Below, piece by piece: positions 3,632 through 64,000 of a stretch of 64,000 nt of DNA. Under the pieces are notes generated by a model, which was given only the letters and a program-made list of their open reading frames with translations, was not told the DNA's origin and did not search any database. The DNA is from Antedon mediterranea (lineage: Eukaryota > Echinodermata > Crinoidea > Comatulida > Antedonidae), in NCBI RefSeq assembly GCF_964355755.1, contig NC_092676.1, positions 22,798,288 through 22,862,287 of the forward strand. Reading direction: 5' to 3'. The translations under genes were made by a program, and so were the position numbers. The first letter of the stretch is position 1; every line of letters begins with the position of its first letter.

Positions 3632-6600
3632 TATGGCAAGCCTCAGCTGTCTGAAGTATTCAAAATATTATATTATTATATCATTTTTTTATTATATTAT
3701 ATATTGTATTGTAATGAATTATACGTTTTGCATTATATTACTTGGTTTAAGCATTATATTATATCTATTTCTAATATATTATGTGAAAAATGTAACAAAT
3801 TATTGACTTTTTGTATTATATTATTTGGTTTTAGCATTATATTATGAACATTTAATATTATATTATTAATAAAATACATTATATTATAATATAATTGTAT
3901 TATATTAAACGCATTTACTTTACTTTATAACATACAACATTATTATATTATACGGATTCGTTAGTTATATTATTATTTTGTATGATGTTTATTATACGTC
4001 ACGGCTTATTTTAGTTCTTCTAACTCTTTCTCTCCCTCCCCCTGTTCACTAGCAATCAGCGGCCGGCAGAATCTGAATTGTGTGACTGTTGAAGAATAAC
4101 TACGTACTAGGCCTAGCCTAGGCCTACTAGGGGATCTAATAACCTAGACAAGTGACCAAGGATCACCGGACAGCTACAACTAATACTACAATACAATAAT
4201 ACTACTACAATAACTACTACTGCTACTACCTAGGCCTAGCTAGTGAGTAGTAGGTAGCTACTACTAGGCTCTAGGGCGTATGTATGATGTTAACTGGGCC
4301 TAGGCTAGGCCTAGAGGCCTACTAGTACTAGGCTAGGCCTAGACTTAAGTTGTAGTAGGCTAGGGCCGGGCCTGCTGCCTTAGGCTAGGCTACTACTACT
4401 ACTACTAGGCAGCCCATGATGGGTACGAGTAAGCCAAAATTTTGGATATATGTAAACCAAAATTTGGGTACGAGCGTGTTGGCATGGCATGGGTACGGGT
4501 TGACCTGTATCCTTCTAGCTAATCGTACTATGCCTAGGCCTCAAGTAAGTCTACGCTACCCAGTCCGGCTACAATATGGTCTATTGTTTTATAGCTTTAT
4601 TGATAGCTGGGTTCAAATCTGGGTTGGGACGGCTTTTTCTCATTCTAAAACAGATTTCCTTATCATAATAAAATAATATATGAATTTATTTGTAATATTG
4701 TAATGTATACATAATATAAGTAATTGCCATTGCCTTTATTACTATTAATTATGTATTATACGGTTACCCCTTAATTATACTATAGTATAATTTCCTTGTT
4801 ATATTTTATTCCTAATTCTACAATTTTGTCTTTCACAGCACAAATTTATCATACTGAATCATCACACACCAAGTCTCATAAATCTCTACTGTATTTGTCC
4901 AAGCTACTCCAGCTACATTGTATTGCCTTGAGGCTAAACTACACGGTATACTGGCACTACCATCATTCCTGGCTCGTCAACCAGTACCACATAAGCACAG
5001 TTTCAGTTTATTTACCATTTCAATTTCTGAACATAAGAGATGAACAACTTATATGGATGGATAACCATAAGAGCGAAGCTCGTTTACTGGTCACCCGTTA
5101 GTGCAGTGACATTACAGACAACATAAAGACAGGACAAAGGTGCAATACTTAACAAGACATGTGAACACTTGTGTTTGCAACCCCTTGGATAAAATAATAT
5201 ATTTATATAATGGAGAAAGTTAGATATTATATTATTTCTTTTTGATCATACAATGATAATTTTTAAATTACTTCTTAAGAAGTCATACTACTGATTCAAA
5301 ATAGTGACTTACACCCTGTGGTCAAGGCTTTATTTGCTCTTATGCTTATTTCCTCCAACATACAGAGTACATAGGACTTTTTTTATTCATAACTGTTGAA
5401 TTGTTTCCCAATACATAGTACCTATTGGTATTATATCTAAAAATACAAAGGCGGCTAACACAGATAGTTCCATATATACAGTACTCTTTTATAAATAAAT
5501 GTATCTCTCCAAACTACTCCCAACTACCTAATCTAAAAATAGTACTATTAGCATACTACTATACACTTTGTAGACAAGAAATAAGTTGTATACACCTACA
5601 GGACTTATGGTAGTGCAGTCGATCGCCCTCTCACTGGCCCGGTCAACATAATCTATACCTAGATTATTACAGTAATTAAAGTACAGTATTACAGAGTTTT
5701 TTTTTTGTTGCAGAAATCAAAGTTATGTGTATAGAAAGCAGTACTCGTATTAAAAACTAAGCAGGTTGCAGGTCTTGAACGCAAACTGGCAGGATATTTT
5801 GAATATTTTTTGTTGTTGAAATGATGGAATCCTAACTTCAATTTCCACGAACCCTTTTATTTAAATTTATTTGAATAGACCTCCATGTAAACTCATTAAA
5901 GGCTACATGATTGTTTTATATTTTAATATGTGATAGTAGAAAATCATTGTGTATAATGAGGACTATGAATCTGATATTTACTTGCATTCTCATCTTTTTA
6001 AATTATTATTTATAATGCCGGTAATGAGTTTAAAATTTAATTATATTGACTATTTTTGATAATCATCATGTCCTTATAAATTCATTTATATTTCTTTTGT
6101 GTAATATAGTTCATATATTATGTATTAAGTAAATTGGTAAGGCCCTATACTGTTACTATTTAAGGAAAGTTTATATACACTATTATTTTATGCCTACCAA
6201 TATTAGTATTAATTGTTTATGTAAATATTTTGTCTAATTGCCTTGATTTTTTGTATAGGCCAATGGCATCAATGTTTTTCTCAAAGCAAATTAGCCTAAT
6301 AATGCCACATTTAGACACATGATTCATTGATTTCTGATATTCTGTACTTGTGTATGCATTACTAAAATAGTAGTTAATATATTTCATTTATAATGTATGT
6401 ATAAACATATATTCATATTTTTTTTAACATTTTTAAATTTAAAAATTATTACAATACCTATCTACCTTTCTGATATTGTTACTATTATATAATATTCTTT
6501 GAGGCAGCAATAAAAAAAAAATTAGAACAATTAATTTGAGTTATACTGTACTATGTTAGTTCAGGAGATGAAGTGTGTGTGGGCAGAAACTAGTGTGTTG

Positions 6601-9600
6601 GAGGTTGGTGGTGTGAGGTGTATAGTTGTCACTTTAAGACCTAAATTAGATGTTTTCTGAAGAAAAGAAGTAAGCGCATACGCTTTCAAACAACAACAAG
6701 AAGATTCACACAAAAATAATTACTTTCCAATAAAGTAGTATAACAGTGTATATTACAGTACATTGAATAAACTCGAGCGGAATAATAACGCACATAAAAA
6801 AACATTCATTTTCTTTTCGAAAAGTGCCCTCTCTAGTTTTCTATTAATTTATTAATAATTATTATTAATTAATGAGTAATATGAACATATTTTTAACATT
6901 CAATGCTGGAAGCTGGTTCTACTCCTAACAAAGTTTCATATCTCCAAATTTCATCAACGTATTCAAAGCACTTCAATATTAAATATCACATTTAACATAA
7001 AAATTCGGGTTTTGGATAGAATTTTGCTTAAAAACATATACAAAAAACATCGATAAAAAATACTTTTCGTATTCAAAAACATTTGATACTTGGTATAAAT
7101 GTTCACTATAGGTTGCTCTATTCACAGAAAAAAATTGCATTCATGAACGTTTTTTGTTGGTTGTTTTTTCGAAATAGTTATTAGCTTGAAAAAAATGAGT
7201 TGGAATTGTATGGTCTTTCATAAGTGTACATTTTGTAAAAACGTAAATTTAAAAAATCAGTGATATGGCTTGATAGTTATTTTTTGTTTGCAATATGGAT
7301 GGAGCAACCTATATTGAACATTTATACCAAGTATCAAATGTTTTTGAATACGAAAAGTATTTTTTATCGATGTTTTTTGTATATGTTTTTAAGCAAAATT
7401 ATATCCAAAACCTGAATTTGTAATGTTAAATGTAATTTATTTAAGCGCTTTGAATACGTTGATGAAATTTGGAGATATGAAACTTTGTTAGGCGTAGATA
7501 CAGTTTCCAGCATTACATTTTAAAAATATGTTTATATTACTCATTAATTAATAATAATTATTAATAAATTAATAGAAAACTAGAGAGGGCACTTTTCGAC
7601 AAGAAAATGAATGTTTTTTATGTGCGTTATTATTCCGCTCGAGTTTATTCAATGTACTGTAATTATTATACACTGTTATACTATTTTATTGGAAAGTAAT
7701 TATTTTTGTGTGAATCTTCTTGGAGTTGTTTGAAGGCGTATCCGCTTACTTCTTTTCTTCAGAAAACATCTAATTTAGGTCTTAAAGTGCACGACAACTA
7801 TACACCTCACACCACCAACCTCCAACACACTAGTTTCTGCCCACACACACTTCATCTCCTGAACTAACATAGTACAGTATAAGTCAAATAAATTTTTTAA
7901 TTTTTTTTTATTGCTGCCTCAAAAAATATTATATAATAGTAACAATATCAGAAAGGTAGATAGGTATTGTAATAATTTTTAAATTTAAAAATGTTAAAAA
8001 AAATATGAATATATGTTTATACATACATTATAAATGAAATATATTAACTACTATTTTAGTAATGCATACACAAGTACAGAATATCAGAAATCAATGAATC
8101 ATGTGTCTAAATGTGGCATTATTAGGCTAATTTGCTTTGAGAAAAACATTGATGCCATTGGCCTATACAAAAATCAAGGCAATTAGACAAAATATTTACA
8201 TAAACAATTAATACTAATATTGGTAGGCATAAAATAATAGTGTATATAAACTTTCCTTAAATAATAACAGTATAGGGCCTTACCAATTTATTTAATACAT
8301 AATATATGAACTATATTACACAAAGAAAGTATAAATGAATTTATAAGGACATGATGATTATCAAAAATAGTCAATATAATTAAATTTTAAACTCATTACC
8401 GGCATTATATATAATATTTTAAAAAGATAAGAATGCAAGTAAATATCAGATTCATAGTCCTCATTATACAAAATGATTTCCTACTATCACATATTAAAAT
8501 AATCATAAAACAATCATGTAGCCTTTAATGACTTTACATGCAGGTCTATTCAAATAAATTTAAATAAAAGGGTCATAATATGTCTTCGTCTCCAGTTCGT
8601 GGAAAGTGAGTTAGGATTCCATCATTTCAACAACAAAAAATATTCAAAATATCCTGCCAGTTTGCGTTCAAGACCTGCAACCTGCTTAGTTTTTAATACG
8701 AGTACTGCTTTCTATACACATAACTTTGATTTCTGCAAAAAAAAAAAAACTCTGTAATAATGTACTTTAATTACTGTAATAATCTAGGTATAGATTATGT
8801 TGACCGGGCCAGTGAGAGGGCGATCGACTGTACTACCATAAGTCCTGTAGGTGTATACAACTTATTTCTTGTCTACAAAGTGTATAGTAGTATGCTAATA
8901 GTACTATTATTAGATTAGGTAGTTGGGAGTAGTTTGGAGAGATACATCTATCTATAAAAGAGTACTGTATATATAGAACTATCTGTGTTAGCCGCCTTTG
9001 TATTTTTAGATATAATACCAATAGGTACTATGTATTGGGAAACAATTCAACAGTTATGAATAAAAAAAAGTCCTATGTACTCTGTATGTTGGAGGAAATA
9101 AGCATAAGAGCAAATAAAGCCTTGACCACAGGGTGTAAGTCACTATTTTGAATCAGTAGTATGACTTCTTAAGAAGTAATTTAAAAATTATCATTGTATG
9201 ATCAAAAAGAAATATTATAATATCTAACTTTCTCCTTTATATAAATATATTATTTTATCCAAGGGGTTGCAAACACAAGTGTTCACATGTCTTAGTATTG
9301 CACCTTTGTCCTGTCTTTATGTTGTCTGTAATGTCACTGCACTAACGGGTGACCGGTAAACGAGCTTCGCTCTTACGGTTATCCATCCATATAAGTTGTT
9401 CATCTCTTATGTTCAGAAATTGAAATGGTAAATAAACTGAAACTGTGCTTATGTGGTACTGGTTGACGAGCCAGGAATGATGGTAGTGCCAGTATACCGT
9501 ATAGTTTAGCCTCAAGGCAATACAATGTAGCTGGAGTAGCTTGGACAAATACAGTAGAGATTTATGAGACTTGGTGTGTGATGATTCAGTATGATAAATT

Positions 9601-10812
9601 TGTGCTGTGAAAGACAAAATTGTAGAATTAGGAATAAAATATAACAAGGAAATTATACTATAGTATAATTAAGGGGTAACCGTATAATACATAATTAATA
9701 GTAATAAAGGCAATGGCAATTACTTATATTATGTATACATTACAATATTACAAATAAATTCATATATTATTTTATTATAAGGAAATCTGTTTTAGAATGA
9801 GAAAAAGCCGTCCCAACCCAGATTTGAACCCAGCTATCAATAAAGCTATAAAACAAAATAGACCATATTGTAGCCGGACTGGGTAGCGTAGACTTACTTG
9901 AGGCCTAGGCATAGTACGATTAGCTAGAAGGATACAGGTCAACCCGTACCCATGCCATGCCAACACGCTCGTACCCAAATTTTGGTTTACATATATCCAA
10001 AATTTTGGCTTACTCGTACCCATCATGGGCTGCCTAGTAGTAGTAGTAGTAGTAGTAGCCTAGCCTAAGGCAGCAGGCCCGGCCCTAGCCTACTACAACT
10101 TAAGTCTAGGCCTAGCCTAGTACTAGTAGGCCTCTAGGCCTAGCCTAGGCCCTAGTAGTTAACATCATACATACGCCCTAGAGCCTAGTAGTAGCTACCT
10201 ACTACTCACTAGCTAGGCCTAGGTAGTAGCAGTAGTAGTTATTGTAGTAGTATTATTGTATTGTAGTATTAGTTGTAGCTGTCCGGTGATCCTTGGTCAC
10301 TTGTCTAGATCCCCTAGTAGGCCTAGGCTAGGCCTAGTACGTAGTTATTCTTCAACAGTCACACAATTCAGATTCTGCCGGCCGCTGATTGCTAGTGAAC
10401 AGGGGGAGGGAGAGAAAGAGTTAGAAGAACTGAAATAAGCCGTGACGTATAATAAACATCATACAAATTAATAATATAACTAACGAATCCGTATAATATA
10501 ATAATGTTGTATGTTATAAAGTAAAGTAAATGCGTTTAATATAATACAATTATATTATAATATAATGTATTTTTTTAATAATATAATATTAAATGTTCAT
10601 AATATAATGCTAAAACCAAATAATATAATACAAAAAGTCAATAATTTGTTACATTTTTCACATAATATATTAGAAATAGATATAATATAATGCTAAAACC
10701 AAGTAATATAATGCAAAACGTATAATTCATTACAATACAATATATAATATAATAAAAAAATGATATAATAATATAATATTTTGAATACTTCAGACAGCTG
10801 AGGCTTGCCATA
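3632..10812. mobile_element. 7.2-kb palindromic (giant foldback) element inserted in the satellite
   Basis: The left arm runs from TATGGCAAGCCTCAGC (3632) to about 7120. The right arm runs from about 7298 to GCTGAGGCTTGCCATA (10812) and is its reverse complement. A spacer of about 175 bp lies between them, so each arm is about 3.5 kb. AGGAAA lies directly outside both ends and occurs once in an intact satellite monomer (ATAGGAAACATT), as expected of a 6-bp target-site duplication. The arms differ by substitutions and small indels; for example the left has extra bases near 4137 and 5150. They contain TAATATA-rich blocks and a TAGGCCTAG/CTACTA low-complexity block. No transposase-like protein is visible. 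Short open frames mirrored in the two arms are explained by the duplication. Confidence 0.88.
6700..7740. repeat. Core of the giant palindrome with unpaired central spacer
   Basis: The innermost arms carry AAAAACATCGATAAAAAATA-type sequence followed by a CGTATTCAAAAACATTTGAT segment. They flank a spacer (about 7121-7297) that is not self-complementary. The spacer holds TGTATGGTCTTTCATAAGTG at 7207-7226, a motif that recurs in the loops of three other foldbacks in this window (around 13906, 14531 and 15161). Confidence 0.7.
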
Positions 10813-18708: not shown

Positions 18709-19059
18709 ACACACAAAAAAGAAGCTGTTTTTCAGCTTGACGTGCGGTTACAGAAATATGTGGAGGTCGAAAGGCTAACTTTATAGCCATTTTTCTTTTT
18801 TCGCCAGTTATTATACTTGTGTATATTTATTGAAAGGTTTTAGATAAACTACTACTGCTGTTCTTCATATTATTTTGTATATTGTTTATATGGTGCCCTT
18901 GATTCAGCTAGGCCTAAAAAACAACGTCCGACGCCGCCTCCTGTGTTGGGTTCCCCTGTGTTGTGTGTGTGGCACTGCAGCAGGTTCAGACGGGTCAGAT
19001 TAACTAACGGATGGACAGTGAGTGCTTAGCATTTTATGTTGATTTGTACTGATCAAACA

Positions 19060-25650
<6,591 letters not shown>

Positions 25651-28807: not shown

Positions 28808-28949
28808 TAAAGCTCTGTCTACACTATCAAACTTTATGTGACAAAAAAAAAAGATCCGATTTGCCATGGACGCGATAATCTCATATCACTGCCATGCAAA
28901 CCACACCTTTTTTTGTCAAACCAAGGTTGATAGTGTAGAGAAAGTTTTA
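28808..28949. mobile_element. MITE, 'CTACACTATCAAAC' family, copy 1
   Basis: Begins TAAAGCTCTGTCTACACTAT and ends with the inverted form ATAGTGTAGAGAAAGTTTTA. Internal sequence is more diverged than in the other copies (39262, 48368, 51141, 61091, 61374). The ends fit a TA-containing target site. Confidence 0.88.
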
Positions 28950-39261: not shown

Positions 39262-39421
39262 TATTCTGACTACACTATCAAACTAGTTTGACAAAAAAGG
39301 TGTGATGTGTCCAAATATGGTAGTGATATTCCCAAATATGGTAGTGATATAACATCATTTCCATATATGGGCACACCACATTTTTTTGTCACATTAAGTT
39401 TGATAGTGTAGACAAAGCTTC
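39262..39421. mobile_element. MITE, 'CTACACTATCAAAC' family, copy 2
   Basis: CTGACTACACTATCAAACTA at the left and AGTTTGATAGTGTAGACAAA at the right are inverted. The interior repeats CCAAATATGGTAGTGATAT twice in tandem, as in copies 51141 and 61091. Confidence 0.9.
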
Positions 39422-47420: not shown

Positions 47421-49176
47421 ATGTCCCCCAAGGAAATTATTGTATCGCTGTTTGTTTTGGCTTCAGTCGTGTGCCTTTCCTACGCTCAATGTGAAATACA
47501 TAGTAAGTTCATTACAGTAATTGTGTATCATTGTCACTTTTTTTTATTACCACTAAATACTCTTGTGTTATGATGTATCCCAATCCAATTTCATTTTAAA
47601 ACGTTGATGCCACATAGGTTTGTGACGCGTAAGTTATTATTTTAGGACTCATTATTTGAAAAGGTAGCCTTGCTTATTATCGCTATACATTATCTCGCGT
47701 ATTCTTGTTGTCCATAACTATATTCTTTATTGTTCTATAGTATTATAATGTGTTCATATTCTTCTTCATTTATTACGACAAAGCGCGAATGGAATTTAAA
47801 GACTATATACGTTTGAATTACCCCTTCCGTTTTGATTATTTATAGCGATTTAGTGATGCATAAAATGGCATGGAAAACGTCACATGTGACCCACCTGTAA
47901 CGTGTTTCATGGAATTTGCCGTATTACTGTTAAAGAGTGTCGGGTGTAATTGTAGGCCTAAACTAAAGACACATGACAGAAAAATCATACATTTACGTCA
48001 TTAACTTCATACCTTTGTTACCTATTCCCTTGTAACATTTGAAATGTATAAATCAACTTGTAATGTGTTTTTGTCTTTTAGAGAAGGCATGTATTTACGA
48101 AAACAACATTTACGGACCATTAGAGAAGTGGTCGACAAAGGACTGTAAAACATGTACATGTTTATATTCAGGAGACGAATATCAGTGTTGCAGCGAGTAA
48201 GTCTTTACAATTAAGCGTGTATATCAATTGGACGTAACGCAATGGTGTAGGCGCAACATGAGTGAGTTAACCAGTCACACTCGATAAATTATTCGAACTT
48301 TTGATCAACTTGCTTGCGTTGCATTTACGTCATTGCGTTCAGTCCTGTCCTAGAGGGCACCAAGCGTTAAGGTCTGTCTACACTATCAAACTAGTTGACA
48401 AAAAAAGTGAGATGTGCCCAGATATGGTAGTGATATGGCATCATCGTTTCCATAGTTGGATAGTGTAGACAGAGCTTTACTATGGGCTTACGTCATTGCT
48501 TTACTGTGAAAACCAAGCTGAAAGCTGTGAATGTTCATAGTCTTATAGATTGTTTATCCATCCCCATATCTATGATGAGAGCAATATGACGACAATATGC
48601 TGGTTAGGTAGACATTTGCTAGAAAGGTGGCAATATACACTAACAATGTGGCTAATACCTACTACTGGGTTACCGCCGTAGTAGTTATTTAAAGTTAATC
48701 GATATTTATTATACAATGATAATTATGGATCATATTGATCATGTGTTTCTGCTGCAGAAAAAAACCATACATAATTTACCAATGTAGGCTTAAGTACTTA
48801 AAACCAAGTTCTTGGTTTGGTCCAAGTATATAATAACATTGATATGTTTACATTGTTATGACGAGTATTCTTATACGTAACGACTATTATGTATTCGTTA
48901 CATTTTTGTATTTCAGATTTTGAGAAATGAATTGGAGGTTATGGGTTTCAAGTCTTAACCCGAGAAGAAATACCATAGATTATTTTTTTTTCTATTGCTA
49001 TTGCTATTAATATATTGACAATTTATTTCTCTCTTTTAATTCGTAGCGCATGGATGCCAATAGATTACTCTTGGGACGATTGCGTACCCGTGTGGGACGA
49101 AGAAAACTGCGCATATCGTCTTTTGAGAATTGACGACCCGGATGTCGAGTGTGAAGTAATGGGAGGAGTAATGTAA
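47421..49176 (+). CDS. Beta-microseminoprotein (PSP94/MSMB) family secreted protein, 3 exons, 108 aa
   Basis: Exons are 47421-47502, 48082-48196 and 49047-49176, with GT-AG introns in phases 1 and 2. The protein has a signal peptide (1-22, ending SYA|QCE) and a mature part of 86 residues with exactly ten cysteines (24, 31, 49, 52, 54, 63, 64, 78, 87, 101). WSTKDCKTCTC followed by YQCC is the family hallmark, and the late PxxY...C...C...DPxxxC order also fits. Exon boundaries match the small multi-exon layout of the family. MSMB proteins are secreted, and vertebrate members bind CRISP-type partners; the role here is unknown. The start at 47421 is chosen over an in-frame ATG at 47361 because it gives a clean signal peptide. 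A possible poly(A) signal is at 49662-49667. No close relative lies next to it. Confidence 0.9.
48229..48370. mobile_element. MITE, 'GTTCCCACTAG' family, 5'-truncated copy 3 (microseminoprotein intron 2)
   Basis: GGACGTAACGCAATGG at the left and TTGCGTTGCATTTACGTCAT then CTAGAGGGCACCAAGCGTTA at the right. The outer left end is missing. It abuts the next MITE directly. Confidence 0.65.
48368..48479. mobile_element. MITE, 'CTACACTATCAAAC' family, copy 3
   Basis: TTAAGGTCTGTCTACACTAT and TAGTGTAGACAGAGCTTTA are inverted ends. It is shorter than other copies through loss of part of the right arm. Confidence 0.88.
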
Positions 49177-50376
49177 AACATCGGCCTTTTGTACTATAAA
49201 CACATCAATTGTACCACCAGTGCGATACACGTAATCAAAATGGACAAACTTTACAGGAAAGAAATATAATTTATATAACGTTTTACTAATACTTTTTATT
49301 CATTATAAGACTGCAGAAAGAGAATATTTATCATGTCACTGGTATAATGCGATTGATATTTTATATATTATGATTGATTTTTAAGAATTGTTACGGAGCT
49401 ATAAACTGTATTACATTCCGAATTGAAATGGATTTACTTTTTTGACGCTCAGCTGCAAAGAACGTTTCTATAAATATTAATTTAAATTTTATTATTCACT
49501 ATTCTTAAAATTAAATGATGGTGCTTGTATTTTGGTAGTTACTTCTTGTTTTCTTGTTTAATATTTTTCGAGAAATAATTTTAATCCCCGGGGGAGCCCC
49601 GACATCGGTGTTTAAAGGCCCCCGCCAAACGTTTGGTAGGCCTGTCATATTATATAGCGACAATAAACATCGTACAGTTGCCTATATCTTAACTGCTGAC
49701 AACAGGCCCATTTAACACCTAACATCCACACAATTTAACATTCTATTAACTTACATTCTAAACCTCTAAATAATCTCTCTTAGTCTTACATTTGCCGTCA
49801 GCAGAATACGATACCGTTTAAACGTAAATTACAATTGTCATGAATTCCATAGACTAAACATACTGTTTGAATATGCTAACAAACTCAAATGAGTTACCGT
49901 AAGAATATCTAGATTGCGTGAAATTTTGAATCTATATTTTATCCATAAATGTAATCGATATTACCGCAATAAAATATATGCCAACATGATTTATGATGAT
50001 ATTGATGATGAGAATGATAGATTTGATGTTGATAATCATGATAATCTTTATCAGGATGTCATCAGTACACCGTTTATACGCGCGCATCAACCTTTTGATG
50101 ACTACAATACACACTTACTTTTATCGTCATTTAATGCTATTTAAAACGCAATAGTACGTATCATTATACCTCTTTACACTGTATTATGAAATAATTAATT
50201 TACATAATATCCAAGGCTACACTTCATAACAAATACAACTGAATAACCGATCAATAGCAAAGCACAAATATGTTCTTAAGATATGAAAACCAAATCGATA
50301 ATCAATAACTGATACTGACGAGTTATAAAGACTCTATAGGCACACACTCCAAAACTCAACAACAGGTTGTGGAATT
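49177..50376. other. 3' flank and intergenic DNA, no gene seen
   Basis: Contains the microseminoprotein 3' UTR and a GATGAT/GATATT-rich stretch (49990-50060) that opens short frames on both strands; these are attributed to the repeat composition. Confidence 0.45.
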
Positions 50377-50409
50377 ACGCTTTGAATAAATATTGGAATA
50401 GAGAAGTTT
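50377..50409 (+). promoter_or_regulatory. Conserved proximal promoter block of gene A
   Basis: ACGCTTTGAATAAATATTGG continues AATAGAGAAGTTT and is almost identical to 54670-54702 upstream of gene B. It ends 17 bp before the gene A start codon. AATAAATATT could serve as the TATA element, or the block may be conserved 5' UTR. Confidence 0.5.
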
Positions 50410-50426: not shown

Positions 50427-53400
50427 ATGAAGGAATTAAAAACCTATATTTGTTTATTGGGTTTAGCATTTATTAATATAGTCACAGGTAAGTGTATTTG
50501 GATAGTATTTATTGGTATGTTTGTCTTGTCTTTGTTATGTAGAATATTACGCTTACTGTAGTTTTTATACTTAGCATTTTTCGGTTACCCTGAAACTAAA
50601 AGTCCTCATTACAGTTTTTGTCCTGTTTCCGGTTCCCGTGTTGTCCTGGTTTTTTTTTAATAGTTTTTATGGGCTGCCTTATACAAGCTTTGCTTTTTTG
50701 AAATTTTGCCCCTCTTATTTGAATCATATTTACTGTCAATTTTTATTTATTATGAAATTGTAAGAGAAATAAATAATGTTACTTTGATTGATTAAATAGT
50801 TGAAAAATTCATCATCATCATTATTATCATCATCATCATTATCATCATTTATCGTTGTTACGTTGTCAACAGTTAGTCTCATAATTATTTATCTTTTTAT
50901 CACCCAAACTTTATCTCTACTTTCACATCATCAATCTATGATTGATATTGATATTGATATCACCATCCTCCACATTATTATTACGTAATTCGTTTCTTAT
51001 CATTATTTTCCTACGTCATTATAATTACCATCATATTTATTATCTTATTATCGTCTTTCATTTTAACATATATTATAATTAAATTAACCCATCATCATCG
51101 TACATTTTTAAACATTGCTAAACATTCTATTGTCATAACCTAAAGCTCTGTCTACACTATCAAACTTTATGTGATAAAGTGTGATGTGCCCAAATATGGT
51201 AGTGATATGCCTAAATATGGCGTCATCATGTTCATATATGGGCACATCACATGTTTGTGTAACATAAAGTTTGATAGTGTGGACAGAGCTTTATAACGCA
51301 ATAATAATCTAAATGGTTATTTCTTCATGTAGCTGCCACAGAAAAGCCAAACAACGGCCTTTGTCCGATTAATCCCACGTTGCCGACAGACGCTGCCGGC
51401 AACACTTACGAATGTCCAAAATTCAACGATGATGGAACGGAAAATACGCATACAGAATGTTGCCATAACGACCGTCCTGATGCGGAGGGGAATTATCATT
51501 CATGTTGCCAGAATGAAGCCGATAAAACTGCAGAACAGTAAGTTGGAATATATATATATATATTTATTTATTTATTGTTTGCGGTACACCACGTATATAA
51601 GTTCTGAAAAGAACTGTTGAGTTTAAGAGTGGGACTAGTGTGAAAGCCAAAAACAATAGCAAGTTCACACAGTAGAAGGAATTGAATTCTGATTTATTTA
51701 TTTTTTATTTATTATTTTATTTCCAAACCCAATAACAAGAGGGTTACATACACAAAAAAATTTGATACAAATACAAGAAGAAATGCATAAATAATAAACG
51801 TTATAATAAGGTAGCACTTAACTTAAACTTTGTTCTTAAACTGATTCAATGAATATGAAAAAATATCAAGGCCGTTATCTTTATGTATTGTCCCTTGAAA
51901 CACAAACAAAATGAAGGTCAAAATATACTAAATTTTAATTGGCAAAGTAATATTAAAGTTATTCACTTTAAGTCGAAAATTCGAGCCAAAAACAACAATT
52001 TTACGTAATTAACAGGTAAATTAATTTGATTACATTTCGTCTGGAAAATAGTCGCAAGCGAAAGTAAACAAAGATTTCAAACCATGAGTATTCATTATGC
52101 ATGATGCTAATTAGGATTGTTTACAACTCGTCACTGTTGAGAGGGTGTTTTCACACAGATCGCGAGGACATTTTATGATTATGCATACAGAGTAGCCAAA
52201 TAAGCGCATTGCGTTATAAGATATGTTTTGATCGAAAACTTTGACTGGAAGTCAAAGTTATGTTTTGAACCAAAAAACGTCTGTATTTCAGTTAAATTAT
52301 TTTTTTTTCGACTAATTTTTGGTGAAAGTTAATAACTATTATGATACTTCAAAATGACTCACTTTTTTTTAAAATCTTTTTATTCTTATTTTTTTGGAAT
52401 TTGACAAAGGGACAATACATTTACTTAATCTACAAAACAATCCATTTTGACAGACATTCACTTTCCCGAATAGAACGAAATGTTAGTTTGGTTCTTAATC
52501 TACGAGAAGGTACTTTCTTACATGTAATCTTTTTAATATATTTTTACATGATCGAAAATCGAAGTTGATGTTTTAGTAAAAAACACATCAAAAGATTAAA
52601 AGTGTTTTTGAATTTTTCTTTCATTGTATTATGGTTTTTTTTTATTGCGCTGTCGTTTAAATCATAAATTAGCTCAAGTTGATATGACAAGCCATGTATG
52701 CCAAATATTTCTTTTAGATTTATGTTAGGCCCATATTTTGGTTGTAAAATATTAATCTGTTAATTACAATCTGTGATTACATTGATTTTTTTTTATAGAA
52801 ATGCAGCATTTTATCGGATACTAGCTTACATCGCCACTGGTACAGCAGTTTGTATTGCATTTGTGATAGTATATACATACTGTAAACCGGATACATTCCC
52901 ATGTTTAAAACCACTGAAAAGATATTCAAAAAGAGCGTTTGATTTTACTATGGATGCTATTTGTTTCTGTCCATGTTTACCCAAGTAAGAAACTTATTAT
53001 TATTATACTAATAATATTTTAAAACCTAATTTTGACATTCCCTAATTGTTGGTAGTTTGCAAAGATATACAATGTTGTATCTAGAAAGACGATATTATTT
53101 TGTATTGTATCATGTTTCTAAGAAAAAATTAAATGAAAAAAAAAATGCACTGTTGAATGTAATCATTTTAATAATATGTTACATTACATATAAATGTGTA
53201 TGACGGAACTTATATACGATACTATACCGAGCAATTTGGGAGATACCAATAAGATAATAAAGATTGGTACACTTGATGATTAGTTTAATGTAAATAATAC
53301 AAGCCCAAAAAATAATGATTTCGCACTACGATCTTTAAAAACGTTTGTAATTCAACGGATTAAACTTATGGTTCAGAAACAGCCATTTATCATTTTAAAG

Positions 53401-53995
53401 CATATTATTAAAGTAGATCTAATTATAATAGTAACTGTTCTCATTATTTTATTTATTAAAAAGATATATTGTCCCCCTAAAAAAATATTTTTTTTAATTT
53501 TTTTGTTGAATATGTTATTTTAATGTCACATAATAGTTATTCACTCTCACAAAAAATTGGGTCTGAAAAAAATCTATTTACCTGAGAAAAATGTAATTTA
53601 AAGCAAAACATGGTCAAATTGTCTGGAAGACAATGAGTTTTTGGGTAATTTAACTGTTTATTTTGTCTTTTTATAGGTGAAATAATTTTTTTCCGCCATT
53701 TTTTTTCTTATGGAAGTGAACAACTTCAATAAAACTGCAAAATGGCCTATTCAAAGTGCGATTTTAAAAATCTTTATTTTTCCTGATTTTGGGGGACAAT
53801 AGAATTTAAAAAAAGACCAAAACTCCATCAAGTTTATTAATCTTTATAATAATTTTGTTTTTTAGGCAATGTCAGCGAGGAGAACCCAAGAAAGAAAAAA
53901 AGAAACGTGAGAGAGGTGAAAAGAACAAACCAAACGTACCGCAATGGGGAGATGACAATTTAGTGAAGCCAGACAGTTGGTACAACAATGTATAA
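50427..53995 (+). CDS. Gene A: small six-cysteine single-pass membrane protein (Shisa-like/STMC6-type?), 4 exons, 193 aa
   Basis: Exons are 50427-50487, 51333-51537, 52799-52984 and 53866-53995; junction phases 1, 2 and 2 all close. Residues 1-20 are a signal peptide. The ectodomain has six cysteines (31, 48, 63, 64, 78, 79), including TECCHNDRPDAEGNYHSCC. A single helix spans about 96-116. It is followed by YCKPDTFPCLKP, then AICFCPCLPK ending at 151, and a Lys/Arg-rich tail ending WGDDNLVKPDSWYNNV. The predicted topology is type I. C..C..CC..CC before one helix is the pattern of the Shisa/CYYR1/VOPP1 (STMC6) superfamily of adaptor-like proteins, but no PPxY motif is present and I do not recognise an orthologue. 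Juxtamembrane cysteines are likely palmitoylation sites (inference). An alternative exon 2 acceptor at 51342 would remove three residues in frame. Possible poly(A) signals are at 54469 and 54491. Confidence 0.85.
51141..51293. mobile_element. MITE, 'CTACACTATCAAAC' family, copy 4 (gene A intron 1)
   Basis: The best preserved copy: TAAAGCTCTGTCTACACTAT at the left and ATAGTGTGGACAGAGCTTTA at the right. Both are followed inward by mirrored CAAACTTTATGTGA / ACATAAAGTTTG. It ends 39 bp before the exon 2 acceptor of gene A. Confidence 0.95.
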
Positions 53996-54540
53996 ACAAA
54001 AGACTTTTGAAAAAAAAACCCAAATAATCGCTGAGATTGAAACTTTTTTTTGTGGACAGCTTCTTTTGGGAACTACGACTCCATTTTCTTGGACGATTTT
54101 TAAGCCAATTTTAAAAATAGTATTTATTCAGATGGCCTTTATATAATATTTTTCATCATTTGCTATGGAATCCTACCTAGTCAGCATATGTGTATAACTT
54201 CAATAGAATTGATGAAGAAGGGGTAGTAGGGTATGGGGTGGGGAGTACTAAAGGTTTTTGCGTAGTTGTTTTAGTATATAAATGATTTACACAAAACAAT
54301 AATATTAATAGATAGATAATTAAAAAAATGAACAAAATAAAAAAGTGTATTGAATTCTTAATGCACAAACCTGAAGTATTGAGAGAACTAATGGTTTAGA
54401 TTTTCTTTTGAAATTTGTCTATTTATTAAAATTCTTGTGTTCTATTTTAGTTAATAATTTACAAGATAAATAAATATTTACTTCGATTTAAATAAAGTTA
54501 AATATAAAGATAAAGCATAGAGATAATACTATATAAAGTC

Positions 54541-54669
54541 TTTGTGGTATACATTTTTTCAACAATCTCAAAATGCGATCCGCCCTCTATTGGATTTCTA
54601 ACATAAATGTTTAATGACGAAGAAGATAAGATAGCAAACATTCTGGAGCTCAACGAAAGGCGGTGGGAT
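54541..54669. other. Short spacer between genes A and B
   Basis: Contains one CGCCCTCTA word (54581-54589). The gene A to gene B distance, stop to start, is about 730 bp. Confidence 0.4.
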
Positions 54670-54702
54670 ACGCTTTAAATAAATATTGAAATAGACAAGT
54701 TT
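54670..54702 (+). promoter_or_regulatory. Conserved proximal promoter block of gene B
   Basis: ACGCTTTAAATAAATATTGA continues AATAGACAAGTTT, the counterpart of 50377-50409. It lies 19 bp upstream of the gene B start codon. The sequence around it is much less similar between the two genes. Confidence 0.5.
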
Positions 54703-54721
54703 AACAGGTTTGAATATAACA

Positions 54722-56158
54722 ATGACGACATTTCAAATGTACTTTTTATTGACTTTAATAGTATTTATTCCTGTTGTCACAGGTACGTTTGTCTATTGTT
54801 ACTGTGGTATAAATAATTCTTATCATAATTATCATCTTAATCATCATCATTGTCAAAAGTGTCATCCTTATTAGTTAATTATCTGTTTTCCTTTTTTTTT
54901 TACTACCTGACACAATGTTCACAACCCCTCTGACACAATGTCAATGACTATTTTTTTTATCGTCCTATCGTTCAATGGTTTACCACAGGAAATCCCCAAA
55001 ATGGTCTTTGCGTCATAGAGGGCACCAGTAAGAAATACAGATGTTCAAGATACAACGATGACGGAACGGACAATACGCACACGGAGTGTTGCACTAACGA
55101 CCGTCCTGACAAGGACGGAAATTATCATTCATGTTGCCAGAATGAAGCCGATAAAGTTGCAGAACGGTACGTTACCTCTGTACAGTACACCATTTTAAAA
55201 AGTTATGCAGTGTAACAGTAACAAAGTAGAAAAAAAAAGAAGAAAAAACAAAACCAAAAACAAACAAGCAAAAAAGAAGAGATATTTTTTTTTCTTTAGA
55301 AATACAGTTTTTATAATGTTGTGTCATTATACCACACCATTAGAAATCTAGCTCAAGTTTTGGTATGAAATGCCATGTATGCCAAAATATTTCTCTTAAA
55401 TCGCCGTCTAGAACTTGCATATTAACCTGTTAAATCGGTTGGTGGAAATCGTTTCATTCCTCTTTCCATGGTTCCATTTTTGCGCAAGAGAGTCATCGAA
55501 ACATTTAGTGTGTTCATAATATTAAAACCATGTGTTTTGTTTTTATATAGAAACGCAGCCTTTTATCGCAAACTTGTTTACATCATCACGGGTACATCAG
55601 TGTGTATCGCACTCGTGATATTATTTACTTACTGTAAGGCGGATACATTCCCATGCTTGAGACCATTGAGAACATATTCAAACAGAATAATCGACATTAC
55701 GATGGATTCCATCTGTTTTTGTCCGTGTTTGCCCAAGTAAGAATGTTTCTAAAGACTTGAGATGTTATTGATTTTGATTAAACGATTGTTAATCATTTTT
55801 AGAGGCACATAAAATAAAATATGTACAGGCCTACACAGTCATTTCCACACGAAAATAAAAATGTATGTAAAGGAAATGGAAAGAAATCATGTATAAATAT
55901 TTTGAAAAAAGTATTATTTTGAAGCGTTACTATTAGCCTTAATAATCTATCTAAAGTAGTTATCCAGATTGTTAGTTTAGTTAGTATTGTCGAAGTGAAG
56001 TTAAAACATTGTTTTTCGATTTTTCCAGAAAATTTCGTCGAGGAGAACACAAGAAAGAAAAAAAGAAGAGAGAGAGGAGTGATAAGAATAAACCAAACGT
56101 ACCGCAATGGGGAGACGAAAATTTGGTGAAACTAGATAGTTGGTATGATAATGTATAA
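54722..56158 (+). CDS. Gene B: paralogue of gene A, 4 exons, 184 aa
   Basis: Exons are 54722-54782, 54989-55166, 55551-55736 and 56029-56158; lengths of exons 1, 3 and 4 equal those of gene A (61, 186, 130). The signal peptide is MTTFQMYFLLTLIVFIPVVT. Ectodomain cysteines are at 28, 39, 54, 55, 69 and 70, with TECCTNDRPDKDGNYHSCC close to gene A. The segment between cysteines 1 and 2 is six residues shorter. The helix is at about 87-107, then TYCKADTFPCLRP and SICFCPCLPK, and a basic tail ending WGDENLVKLDSWYDNV. The closeness to A in both exons and promoter block indicates a recent tandem duplication. Introns are much shorter than in A and lack its MITE. Function is unknown; see gene A for the family question. 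Confidence 0.88.
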
Positions 56159-58064
56159 AGTTCTGGAAGAAATAACATTGGTGTTGCGGTCACATGGAAT
56201 CCATTTCCAAGCACTACTGTTTTGTGGCTGGACATTTATTAGATATTTGAATTAAGAGGATACCTTTAATACTCATCACATTTTAGATATGAGATATTCC
56301 CTTTAAATATATTACCTATTTCACTTAAAGCCAATACAAATGTCCTAAGTGGTGTACCTGTAGGTATGAGATATGTAGTAATAGTGTTATGTGAAGTATA
56401 TATTCATTTTGCTATTGGTGAATACACCCACAGCTCAGTCACTAGCACCTGTATTGCAAGACAGAAAACAATGGATTTGCATATGAAAATCAGCAATGCA
56501 AAGGGGTGAAGGGAAACGCATTTTGATTACAAAAACTCGAGCCTACGCCATCAGTTGTTTAGTCCGTCTGTAGCCAACAGCAAGAAGATATGAGACTGAA
56601 TTTTCGCTGTACAGTATGTGTGTGTATATCGATCATCAATCTTTTCGTATGTAATTTTACTCCTATATAGATCATCAGTGTTTTATTTTCGATATTTTAC
56701 ATCTGTATTGGTATTATGATGAACATGTTATTTGTTACCAAATAAGTCACGACATTGAAGTTAGCAATATAAAGCAATACATTATTTTCAATACTATTAA
56801 TAGAATAGGCTTAACAATCTTTATCTATATAGTCTTATATCTCTATAGTCTTTATCTATAGTCTTATACACTAGTACCGTTGAAGGGCTAGTTTTGCACG
56901 AAAGCTCTGCTAATTTATCTGGTTGTTTTACTTTATCGTGTTGATTTAGCTTTTTGCTTATTTTATTTTGTATCTCCATTAAGATCCAGCCAATGACTGA
57001 TACACACAGCATTTTAAATTATTTCAGTAATTTACCTTTAGATTTCTATATAGCCTTATATAAATATAAAGAACGTATTATTTTTTTTTATGTTTCCAAC
57101 GATTACTTAATAAGGACAGCAATTAAATTTGCTAGATCCTTGGCAACAAGAATGATAATGCAATATTTGACTTTAATTAAAATTATCTAAATAGGAAATT
57201 CAAATAGGCATTGTACAAAGAAGAAGTTTCTGCTTGTTTCAACACGTTATTTGTATGACGATATACATCATTAATATTCATAGCCTCAATTTTCAATCCC
57301 ACAATGCACCAATCGTTACGTATTTTACTGTCAGCTGTCGTATTCCCACGGCTCGTAACTTAAATAGGCCTTAACACAAATTGAAGATGAATATTGATAA
57401 AAACAGTTCGATGTTATAAATATGTAACCTGCTAGCAACACATTGTTAATACTTATTACAGGTTATTTATAGTGTATAAATAATGAATGTTTATGAGTAA
57501 AAAATTCGTTGAAAGTTTGACTGTCCTATTCGTTTATCTTATCTTATTTCGGTTTCTATCTTACTGAATAATTATTATTTACAAACAGTTAAGTTTATTT
57601 ATAAAAAATATTAAAAAGCATACTGAAAAAAAAGGATATAAATTTATAAATGCATAATTATATCGTTAACACATTATTCTACTGTAGTGGATTCAGTAAC
57701 TAGATTTGCAACAGGCACTGTAGTAAATGGTGTGTATTGTTACCTACAGAAAGCTTGGCTAAACAATTTGTTAAAGAGATAAAATAATTTGTTAAAGAGA
57801 TAAAATAATGTAGTTTCTCTGCAGTTAAATAATGTAGTTACTGCAGTAACTGCAATAATTTCGACATGTTTCCTAAAATTATATTATATATTTAACAGTT
57901 ATTAGAAATTGTAAACAAATTGAACGTATTGTCATGAAGGTAAATATTGTTTTACAAACTAAACAAATACACTTAAGACCATATTTCGTCTTATTAATAT
58001 TACTGTCGCATTAGAACACAGTCAGAACACAAGGCATTACATGGAGGAGTAACCTAGTTTGACA
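56159..58064. other. Intergenic between genes B and C, no gene seen
   Basis: Short open frames at 56954-57190 and on the opposite strand have no splice or homology support. A 20-bp direct duplication (TTTGTTAAAGAGATAAAATAAT-type) lies at 57766-57806. Confidence 0.45.
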
Positions 58065-60099
58065 ATGCTACGTCTGCTTAAACTGGTTACAGTTTTTCTT
58101 TTATTAGGTAAGGTTTGTAGATTTTTGTATCGTACAATACATTTAATTTAATTTAATTTTATCTATTTCAACAAATATATACATATAATAAATAAGTATA
58201 AAATGAAATAAAGCGATATTTTTATTGCTTTTGACAATCCGACAGAATCGTGTCCTTATCTTATAAGTAGTATCGTATCATTTTTATTATCAAATTCAAT
58301 ATCATTGAAATCTATTTTTATAATTCTCAATATATGTATCTTTTAAATTAAATTATTGTCTTTATCATTATCATCGCCATGATCATTTTTTTTATTATCA
58401 TGTAATTGTTTTTTAGGAAGAATACTTTGTCAGGACAAACCGTGCCCTAAAGATGGCATATACGCTAACATCGAAGCAGACGACAATACATTCTATTGTA
58501 TGGCAACGGTAAACAACGAACCGAATCCTTACACAAAGTGTTGTTGGGAAGATAGACCAGTGAATGCAGCAGGGGATTATGATCCAAATGGAGATACGTA
58601 TTCGTGTTGCAAAGAAGACGCCGAGGCTAGTGCAGAATTGTACGTATTGTAGGCCTACTTTTTTAAAGCTACGTTAACACTGAGCGTGGATTCGGTCTAG
58701 TGGCCTAAAAGCCAACATAGACAGCTTCGTACGATGAAGCCAACTCCGATCACTACTTGCCCCACCCTCCTTCGACGATCTAAAAACTACGCACGACGCT
58801 ATCTCGAACGACTCGTCTCATTTGGTTTCAACTAAGACCGCGCCGACGAGTCAAGACGTTTAGTTGGGATTCCTCGTAGGACGTTGTCTGAGTTGGCCTT
58901 TTGAAACACCACCGCTTTAAGCTACTGTACACAATACATTGGAATAATACAGAGTGGGTGAGTGGATGGTTCTATTCTTAATCACTACACACATTTATCA
59001 CAATTCTACAGTCAACGTACCAGGACCAGGACTCAGTGTTAACGTAGCGTGAATTTGTACACGTATAAAGAAAACGCGTCAACATTTTTTTACGATCTAG
59101 TAGATGAAATGATTTATACAATTTGAATTATTTTCTGAAGACAAATACAGTTTAATTTAGATCATACAATCTTTCCTCATACAATATTTTACATGTGTCT
59201 TTTCAATAATGTATACTGCACGTAGTATACAGTAGTCGGTCTGTGTAACTTTTTGCCTAAATAGAGGAAAATAAATAGGGAAATTTACATAATATAAACT
59301 AATAGAGGGAGCTGTTTTTCATTATAGAGGGCGTACTTTTTCAATTCATTTATTCATCTTTTTATTTCGGAATACCATGAATACATAATATATCCATATC
59401 AAAAAAAAATTAAGCTAGCTTTATCTAAAAAATCATTAACAAAAAAAATTGCAGTGTTGATATCAAAGTGGTCTTATATTATATTATCCAGGTGGAAAGA
59501 ATTTATCCTGATTTGTGTATATGTGGGTATTGTGACGGCTTGTTTAATGACAATTGTGTTTGTGACAACATACTGCCAGGTGGACACATTCCCGTTCTTG
59601 AAACCCGCTTTAAAGAAGCTTCGATTTTGGAAAAACATAATTCTTGATTCCATTTGCTTTTGCCCCTGTTTGCCAAAGTAAGTAAAGAAAGTGTTTCACA
59701 TAACCTACTAATTATTTAAAGTACCTACTGTATTATTCAGATAACCAAGGCTTGGTTTCGATCTAAGGCGCATACGGTAAGTAATTAGACAACTGTATTA
59801 TAATATTAATGTATGCATGATGTAGGGTGAATACGACGTAATTATTACATGTAGCGAACAATTGATGCCACTTGGTTCCATTTCACTAAGTACAATTCTT
59901 GAGTACTATATTCCTACTATGTTCTTACCATTATATACATAATTTTTTTTTTCATTTTAGAAAATTTCGTCGAAAACAAAAAAAGGCTAAGCCACACCAA
60001 CCACCTCCTGAGATCAAAATTATACCGGATGAACAAGAGGTGACAAACACACCTGTGCAGGTGTTAGGAGAAGGATATGTTGGAGACGATTTTTGGTAG
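58065..60099 (+). CDS. Gene C: diverged paralogue of genes A and B, 4 exons, 196 aa
   Basis: Exons are 58065-58107, 58417-58639, 59492-59677 and 59961-60099, with the same phases as A and B. Exon 3 is again exactly 186 nt, which fixes its acceptor at the CCAG before 59492; the GCAG at 59454 would be out of frame. The signal peptide is short (MLRLLKLVTVFLLLGRILC). Ectodomain cysteines 24, 42, 56, 57, 78 and 79 keep the C..C..CC..CC order, with longer loops and a CCWEDRP segment. The helix is at about 93-115, then TYCQVDTFPFLKP, where the middle cysteine of A and B is Phe, and SICFCPCLPK is unchanged. The tail keeps KFRR but is otherwise different: proline-rich (PHQPPPE) and ending GEGYVGDDFW. 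A possible poly(A) signal is at 60450-60455. Confidence 0.85.
58668..59048. mobile_element. TIR element, 'GCTACGTTAACACTGAG' (gene C intron 2)
   Basis: GCTACGTTAACACTGAG at the left and CTCAGTGTTAACGTAGC at the right are inverted, 381 bp apart end to end. The interior is clearly richer in GC and CpG (for example ACGACGCTATCTCGAACGAC) than the surrounding intron, as expected of an insertion. There is no coding capacity. Confidence 0.85.
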
Positions 60100-61090: not shown

Positions 61091-61236
61091 TAAGCCCCGT
61101 CTGCACTATCAAACTAGTTTGACCAAACAAAAGTGTGATATGCCCAAATATGATAGTGATATACCCATGATAGTGATATGACATCATCACATTTTTTTTG
61201 TCATATAAAGTTTAATAGTGTAGACACAGAGCTTTA
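61091..61236. mobile_element. MITE, 'CTACACTATCAAAC' family, copy 5
   Basis: TAAGCCCCGTCTGCACTATC at the left and TAGTGTAGACACAGAGCTTTA-like sequence at the right. The interior repeats GATAGTGATAT. Confidence 0.85.
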
Positions 61237-61497: not shown

Positions 61498-62060
61498 AGC
61501 AAGGAAATCATGGATTTCGACGATCATTACAATCATTTTCCTATTTACTGTGGAAATGATAGCGTGAAATTCAGAAAACAATTATTGTATATTTACTGTA
61601 GTATTTGGCTGGTACGTTATATTGTTCTTTTTAAAAAGTATTATTATGATTGGTATGAACGCAAAAGAAGAAAACAAAACAAGAAATAATCTTCGAAATC
61701 CAATGACTTTTATAACACCTTCATAAACATACACATCTATTGATTCAGCATCGTTCCAACTGATTCACTGTCCCTGAAAATAAATCTGGATTTTAGAGCA
61801 AAACAATAAAAATTTCGGCAATTGTTTACGTACCTTTTCCGGATACCTGGTGCCAAATAAGTTCAACAAAGAAGAAAGAAAAAATTAAACCTAATTTAAC
61901 TATCGTCCCTGAACTCGAAATGAAACGCCACAAAAAAAGTGGGCGGGACTATTATTTGTTGAATGTCCATAAACATTTTTGGAAAAAAATATCGATTCTC
62001 TTCATTCAGTAGAGAAAGTTTAACACCGTCGTACTAGCTACTAGTGGTCAGGCAGGCAAT

Positions 62061-63703
62061 ATGGATCTACTATTCTTTGTCCTTTTGTCATCTTTTATCC
62101 ATGGTACATATGGCTTCGCTGCTGGCGCTGGTTCGGGCTCGTGTGAATCGTTGGTACCAAAGCATAGTGATATTGAATCGCAGCCGCCAGCTGCGTCTCC
62201 CTGGACAGTAACTTCTTCTGCAACATCTTATACATCTGGACAGACGATTGACGGTTAGTTACCATTAGTTATAAAATACATTTTATTGATTGGGAACCAG
62301 AAATAGGAGTGTCCCAGAATAATCGTTAAATAATCATTTCTAATGTTGGAAGTCAGCCCTTGGCAAAGGCATGTAATCTCAGATTGTATATTATATCTTT
62401 GCAAATTTGCATTGGAATTACACTTAGTATAGCCGTTCTAACCACATTTCTATAACATTGTTGGCTATGCAAAACGTAATAATTTATGAACCAATGTTTA
62501 ATGATCAGAAACAAATTATCAGTAAGATCATGGATATGAATATTTTATCCATGGTAAGATAGTCCTAAATACAGATTTGAAACAGATGATAGAGGGCGTA
62601 ACTTACGCATAATGACGTTTAAAGATTTCTTCCGCCATGTAAACGTTGTTTGAATTGGCTATAATCTTGTTTATGTGGACCTATCTATTATTCAACGACT
62701 GATTCGAGAAAAATGTAGTTTGTAAATGGTAAGTATCATGAATAAACGAGCTATAAAAGAGCTTATTGTTTTACTGGTGTAGGCCTATTTTGAAGTATGT
62801 TTTTCGATATTAACCGGCTCAGCTATGTTCAACGCCACTAGCAACTACTCGTGTGCATCCTATTGATGATCGCCGAACAGGTGAACAAACAATACTAAAA
62901 ACAATATAGCCATTGTGAGCATTTCTTGCAATACTGTACCTGCAACAATTTGGTTCATTGGAGAAAGGGTGAGGTAGCTCATTAAATATACCGTAACTAC
63001 AAAATAGAAAGTATAGTACAGTACAGTATCAACAACTGTATCAATATAACAATGATAAATATAATATTGAACAGAATACCACTCATATATCTCTATAAAG
63101 ATATATTTTGCTCAAAACATTACAATACAGATGAAAATATCTGTTATATAGGTTAAATAACATGTTCACTTTTTGTTGAAGCAATGATCTAACTTATAAA
63201 AAAAGATAAAATAATGTTGTTTTTTTTTCTATAAAATAAAAAAGTCAATAACAATTATGTGGCTTTAAAATGGGCTATTCAATAATATATTTTTCAGGGG
63301 ACAATACATGTTTAAACACGTGTGGAATATAATATTCATAGGTACAATAATTTTCATGTTTATCTTCCACGTGTAATAAATAATAAAAATATGTTCATAT
63401 TGATTTGAATGTTTATACACACCTAAGCATAGGCCTACTTAGTATAAACTTTTCTATTTATTTTTAAACAGTAACCATTCAAGCCTCAGGAAGTCAGCAG
63501 TATATTGGTATTCTTCTTCAGGCTCGTCCAGCTGGATCTAATGTCCCAGTTGGAACATGGGTAACGAATGTGGCAGATACAAAGCTAAAGCAATGTACGA
63601 ATGCAGACGACAGTGTAACTCATTCAAGCGATAGTTTAAAACCTGTGACGACAACATTTACCTGGATACCGCCCTCGTCCAATGTTGGATCTATAGCGTT
63701 TCA
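62061..63703 (+). CDS. Reeler-domain secreted/defence-type protein, first two coding exons, truncated by window edge
   Basis: Coding exons seen are 62061-62253 and 63472-63703 (phase 1 between them, leaving phase 2 at a GTGAGT donor), giving 141 residues. MDLLFFVLLSSFIHGTYG is a signal peptide. The rest reads as a Reeler domain: a first cysteine at 28 (GSCESLVPKH), SPWTVTSS..SYTSGQTIDVTI, YIGILLQARP, VGTWV, a second cysteine at 106 (LKQCTNADDSVTHSS) and TTFTWIPPSSNVGSIAFQ. In such proteins the Reeler domain is followed either by little else (insect and invertebrate defence proteins) or by DOMON and cytochrome b561 domains (FRRS1, ferric-chelate reductase 1 type). The missing exons would decide between these. 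Confidence 0.88.
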
Positions 63704-64000
63704 GTGAGTCTATGTTTTCTACCAAGCAATACAAATTGCAAAGTAGTATTACTAGAAAAAAATGTTTGCAAAGCATTTGGCGAGCATATTACTTAATTAT
63801 TTTATAATTGTGTTTTTGTACGATAACGTCCACAATTTCAAAGTTATCGTCATTAATATTTCGCACACAGTAAAATTGATATATTCGTATACAAGTTAAA
63901 ATGTCTTGATGAATCTCGATTTGTTATATTTTTTTTATTTAAGTTAAAATACCTCGATTTATTATATTTTATTTATATATTTTGATATATATTATTATTA
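63704..64000 (+). other. Start of intron 2 of the Reeler gene
   Basis: AT-rich DNA after the donor at 63704 with no further exon before the window end. Confidence 0.6.

Follow-up and report, generated by a model that had tools for sequence, protein, structure and literature searches.

Three tandem genes for six-cysteine single-pass membrane proteins in the crinoid Antedon mediterranea, tentatively a divergent Shisa-like branch

Proteins of the STMC6/Shisa-like class are defined by a C*C*CC*CC ectodomain that follows a signal peptide and is combined with a single helix (PMC5578492, PMC6125347). They carry a WY, WF or IW aromatic motif at the border between ectodomain and membrane (PMC6125347) and a proline-rich PPxY tail (PMC5578492, PMC6125347, PMC11399591), and they serve as adaptors (PMC5578492, PMC11399591, PMC6125347). 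Only one or two Shisa genes were counted in the echinoderms surveyed (PMC7653359). In the 354-Mb genome of A. mediterranea (11 large chromosomes and seven small scaffolds), the Shisa_N profile (PF13908) matches two genes outside the locus described here, at C6:2008974 and C10:18277612, which served as positive controls, as did two WBP1-like matches in the same genome, an ectodomain encoded on C4 and a PPxY tail encoded on C8. Going by splice sites predicted from the sequence, the ectodomain exon of both Shisa genes has a phase-1 intron on its 5' side and, just 5' of the helix, a phase-2 intron on its 3' side.

Here we describe three plus-strand genes, A, B and C, in a window of 64,000 nucleotides (the whole stretch of DNA analyzed, with a G+C content of about 31%). 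The start (50427) and end (60099) given for the locus in a preliminary description are both exact. The gene models and their parts are as follows.

50427-50487, 51333-51537, 52799-52984 and 53866-53995 (span 50427..53995), plus strand: coding sequence of gene A, 193 aa, from splice sites, phases and open frame
51333..51537, plus strand: gene A, six-cysteine ectodomain exon, phase 1 to phase 2
52799..52984, plus strand: gene A, transmembrane/juxtamembrane exon, ending ICFCPCLP(K), with CFCPCLPK from 52962
53866..53995, plus strand: gene A, basic tail exon, C-terminus WYNNV, YxxPhi-like
54722-54782, 54989-55166, 55551-55736 and 56029-56158 (span 54722..56158), plus strand: coding sequence of gene B, 184 aa, from splice sites, phases and open frame
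54989..55166, plus strand: gene B, six-cysteine ectodomain exon, phase 1 to phase 2
55551..55736, plus strand: gene B, transmembrane/juxtamembrane exon, CFCPCLPK from 55714
56029..56158, plus strand: gene B, basic tail exon, C-terminus WYDNV, YxxPhi-like, with D-N-V also compatible with a class III PDZ ligand
58065-58107, 58417-58639, 59492-59677 and 59961-60099 (span 58065..60099), plus strand: coding sequence of gene C, 196 aa, from splice sites, phases and open frame
58417..58639, plus strand: gene C, six-cysteine ectodomain exon, phase 1 to phase 2
59492..59677, plus strand: gene C, transmembrane/juxtamembrane exon, CFCPCLPK from 59655
59961..60099, plus strand: gene C, basic tail exon, C-terminus DDFW, terminal YxxPhi absent

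When the exons were joined by a script, the four-exon plan and phases first ascribed to all three genes were reproduced: all nine introns are GT-AG, every gene shows the phase series 1, 2, 2, the third exon measures 186 nt throughout, and the reading frame runs uninterrupted from ATG to stop under the predicted splicing, which we infer from the genomic sequence.

The window also holds an exon of the LIX1 (limb expression 1) gene at 25249-25650 on the plus strand (Pfam PF14954, E 7e-72), the 5' part of which may lie at 19030-19326, and a Reeler-domain (PF02014) gene at 62013-63707 on the plus strand, downstream of A, B and C. A large inverted repeat pairs 4389-5101 and 5419-5716 with 8730-9027 and 9342-10059, and the list of open reading frames shows the same open frames on opposite strands. 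A short repeated element with the terminal inverted repeats CTGTCTACACTATCAAACT occurs at 28815, 39266-39415, 48374-48472, 51148-51286, 61097-61227 and 61381, with zero copies expected by chance; it is probably a MITE, and one copy sits inside intron 1 of gene A and another inside an intron of the neighboring microseminoprotein gene discussed below.

The three translated models bear out the architecture initially proposed. Each has a signal peptide-like N-terminus, an ectodomain with six cysteines in the order C..C..CC..CC (spacings 16/14/13 in A, 10/14/13 in B and 17/13/20 in C), one strong helix downstream of the signal-like N-terminus (Kyte-Doolittle 2.2-2.7) and an ICFCPCLPK motif that is invariant across the three. 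The region of this motif is semi-hydrophobic (Kyte-Doolittle 1.15-1.6) and by that measure not a second helix. The cytosolic part spans about 80 residues and has a net positive charge in all three proteins; it was first said to end in acidic and aromatic residues, which is right for C (DDFW) but does not strictly hold for A and B (SWYNNV and SWYDNV). At the border between ectodomain and membrane, A and B carry the aromatic residues FY (AAFYR) and C carries W and F (LWKEF), with no exact WY, WF or IW. The CCG tripeptide is absent from A, B and C, which have CCH, CCT and CCW instead. We tentatively read the three proteins as type-I, probably S-acylated, Shisa-like adaptors that form a small tandem family, whether as a divergent branch of STMC6 or by convergence.

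The tails bear on a more specific proposal, that A, B and C serve NEDD4-family ubiquitin ligases as adaptors of the WBP1/VOPP1/CYYR1 type. Their cysteine order and single helix are as described for STMC6 proteins (PMC11399591), but the defining PPxY, and LPxY as well, is absent from all three tails, C having a PPP run only; the WBP-1 and CYYR1 profiles gave no match, pairwise scores were at chance, and the ectodomain exon of the genome's WBP1-like candidate has phases 0/0. We consider such a role highly improbable.

A, B and C are maintained coding genes that arose by tandem duplication, and chance is excluded as an explanation. Proteins A and B show 69% identity; between the two genes dN is 0.19, dS is 0.76 and dN/dS is about 0.25. 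Both genes are under purifying selection, strongest on the cytosolic side: by segment, dN/dS falls from about 1.0 in the signal peptide to 0.34 in the ectodomain and 0.14 in each of the transmembrane/juxtamembrane exon and the tail, values that are rough given the short segments. Synonymous sites are saturated between A and C and between B and C, which makes C an older copy. The local expansion proposed at the outset holds, in that the three tandem copies were the only ones found when the whole genome (354 Mb) was searched with B, with C, with the third exon of gene A and, as a DNA pattern, with the motif.

Intron sequence of A and B is mostly no longer alignable, with the exception of one block in intron 2 (52666-52719 in A, 55344-55401 in B) that keeps 84% identity over 58 nt and is possibly a regulatory or splicing element. 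The two genes also have a promoter-proximal block in common.

50355..50409, plus strand: promoter-proximal block of gene A, common to gene B, 84% over 55 columns, containing AATAAATATTG
54649..54702, plus strand: promoter-proximal block of gene B, common to gene A

Comparison with C shows where the family resemblance sits. The juxtamembrane segment TYCxxDTFPxLKP...DxICFCPCLPK is identical at 19-20 of 36 positions between A or B and C, the helix at just 6-8 of 26, and the ectodomain at about one third. The shared part of the three proteins is therefore mainly cytosolic, in contrast to the emphasis on the ectodomain in the preliminary description, and the juxtamembrane segment is the best conserved part.

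A neighboring gene 1.25 kb upstream of gene A encodes a different cysteine-rich protein.

47421-47502, 48082-48196 and 49047-49176, plus strand: beta-microseminoprotein (PSP94, PF05825) gene, phases 1 and 2

The Pfam query used for this gene differed slightly from the model at the last exon junction. Further microseminoprotein-like matches, some of them below the cut-off, lie on C7 at 30308613-30313618, 18895358-18896270 and 10919895-10937234, suggesting an expanded family on that chromosome. We considered whether the ectodomain of A, B and C derives from this neighbor by local exon duplication: the gene is an upstream neighbor in the same orientation, the middle one of its exons also runs from phase 1 to phase 2, and the C-x17-C-x13-CC spacing of that exon recurs in gene C. 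However, profile and shuffle tests do not support such an origin, which we judge very unlikely. The profile score was no better than that of shuffles, and pairwise scores were mostly at chance, with only C slightly raised (its score was reached by 35 of 500 and by 110 of 2000 shuffles); the microseminoprotein exon also encodes additional cysteines and lacks a second CC pair.

Relatives were then sought by profile, alignment and structure. A Pfam search of A, B and C returned no family match, neither to Shisa_N at its cut-off nor to CYYR1, WBP-1 or PSP94; weak hits to NPR3, Kazal_CFAI and Emr1 were set aside, covering the wrong region. Profile searches of the PDB gave chance matches only, and a scan of viral contigs found no relative of the three proteins. 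In the genome, three CYYR1-profile matches (L013-L015) were rejected as sub-threshold and frame-broken, and another match (L017) as a repeat artefact. Against a three-sequence Shisa ectodomain profile, A, B and C scored no better than shuffles, and the profile-profile comparison put forward as a check on kinship with Shisa turned out negative (hhalign probability 0.5%). AlphaFold2 models of the ectodomain, built from alignments of three rows, reached a pLDDT of 53 and 56, and the first, at this low pLDDT, gave no usable match to Shisa-3 (PDB 5m0w) or any other fold in Foldseek and VIA searches.

Pairwise comparisons included the genome's Shisa gene on C10 (L026). Protein A aligns with it in register along CP...DG...CC...G.Y..CC, and of 2000 shuffles that preserved the cysteines, 1988 scored lower; as one of 15 comparisons, this similarity is suggestive only. 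B is weaker, its score against the same gene being reached by 81 of 2000 shuffles, C showed no similarity to the Shisa references in shuffle tests, and the joint shuffle tests against Shisa were not significant. The best match of A to Shisa-3 was discounted, its alignment being out of register.

The placement among Shisa/STMC6 proteins that was initially suggested is thus partly supported, by topology, six-cysteine order and the 1/2 phases of the ectodomain exon, whose second intron lies just 5' of the helix in A, B and C too, but not by a Shisa_N match, by CCG or PPxY, or by the distance between the CC pairs, which is longer. Outside the cysteines, resemblance is weak to nil. The phase match to Shisa is itself weak evidence, because the unrelated microseminoprotein neighbor also has a 1/2 exon.

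The main rival, and a distinctly possible one, is that A, B and C form a lineage-specific family of their own, cysteine-rich membrane proteins that arrived by convergence at the C..C..CC..CC order of STMC6. This would agree with the lack of detectable similarity to Shisa_N, CYYR1 and WBP-1, with a gene C that resembles none of the Shisa references, with the missing CCG and PPxY, and with an ectodomain less constrained than the cytosolic part; on the other side, the Shisa genes of this genome share cysteine order, topology and intron phases with A, B and C. Members of such a family may be fast-evolving receptors at the surface, or molecules of immunity or adhesion, that signal via the conserved cytosolic segment, but there are only three copies and the A/B ectodomain is under purifying selection (0.34), which is not the pattern of an arms race. 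A narrower version, in which a new family unrelated to STMC6 has a convergent ectodomain and exerts its function through an undescribed, probably acylated cytosolic module, DTFPxLKP...DxICFCPCLPK, seems to us possible, though less likely than not.

We tentatively prefer to see A, B and C as tandem copies of one gene that work as Shisa/STMC6-like transmembrane adaptors, a view we hold with less than even confidence. As to evolutionary origin, most likely they branched off the Shisa-like (STMC6) class, diverged very far and were duplicated locally. Beyond the topology, conservation and motifs described above, we infer a mechanism in which the ectodomain, as a small module stapled by disulfides, would hold on to a partner membrane protein, either in the secretory pathway or at the surface. 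S-acylation of the invariant cysteines on the cytosolic side (TYC, ICFCPC) would pin the juxtamembrane segment, which is amphipathic, to the membrane, and the tail, with its terminal YxxPhi in A and B, would recruit sorting machinery and so set the partner's destination. The terminal YxxPhi is missing from C, which counts against this reading.

If these proteins are a divergent Shisa-like branch, the six-cysteine adaptor plan can lose CCG and PPxY and gain a different cytosolic module, and profile surveys therefore undercount such adaptors. If the resemblance is convergent, the locus adds a membrane protein family that has no name yet and whose cytosolic motif is sharply conserved and easy to test. 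Neither outcome upsets a current view.

A, B and C can be compared with three kinds of known protein. Beta-microseminoprotein is adjacent, on the same strand and cysteine-rich, with the same exon phases 1 and 2, but it is secreted, has another set of cysteines and no helix, and its similarity to A, B and C is not significant. The WBP1/WBP1L/VOPP1/CYYR1/TMEM92 branch of STMC6 has the cysteine order and topology in common with them; it differs in that A, B and C have neither PPxY nor a profile match, a far wider cysteine spacing, and ectodomain-exon phases of 1/2 as against 0/0 in the genome's WBP1-like candidate. The Shisa family is like them in the signal peptide, the C..C..CC..CC order, the single helix, an ectodomain exon flanked by introns of phases 1 and 2 and, in one of the two genome copies (L025, with the cluster CCCFRCC), cytosolic cysteines after the helix. 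Unlike Shisas, A, B and C have no profile match, no CCG and no proline-rich PPxY-type tail, their third intron is in phase 2 and not in phase 1 as in the genome's Shisa genes, and their CC-CC spacing is 13-20, about twice the 6-8 of reference Shisas. A new, invariant DTFPxLKP...ICFCPCLPK segment also sets them apart.
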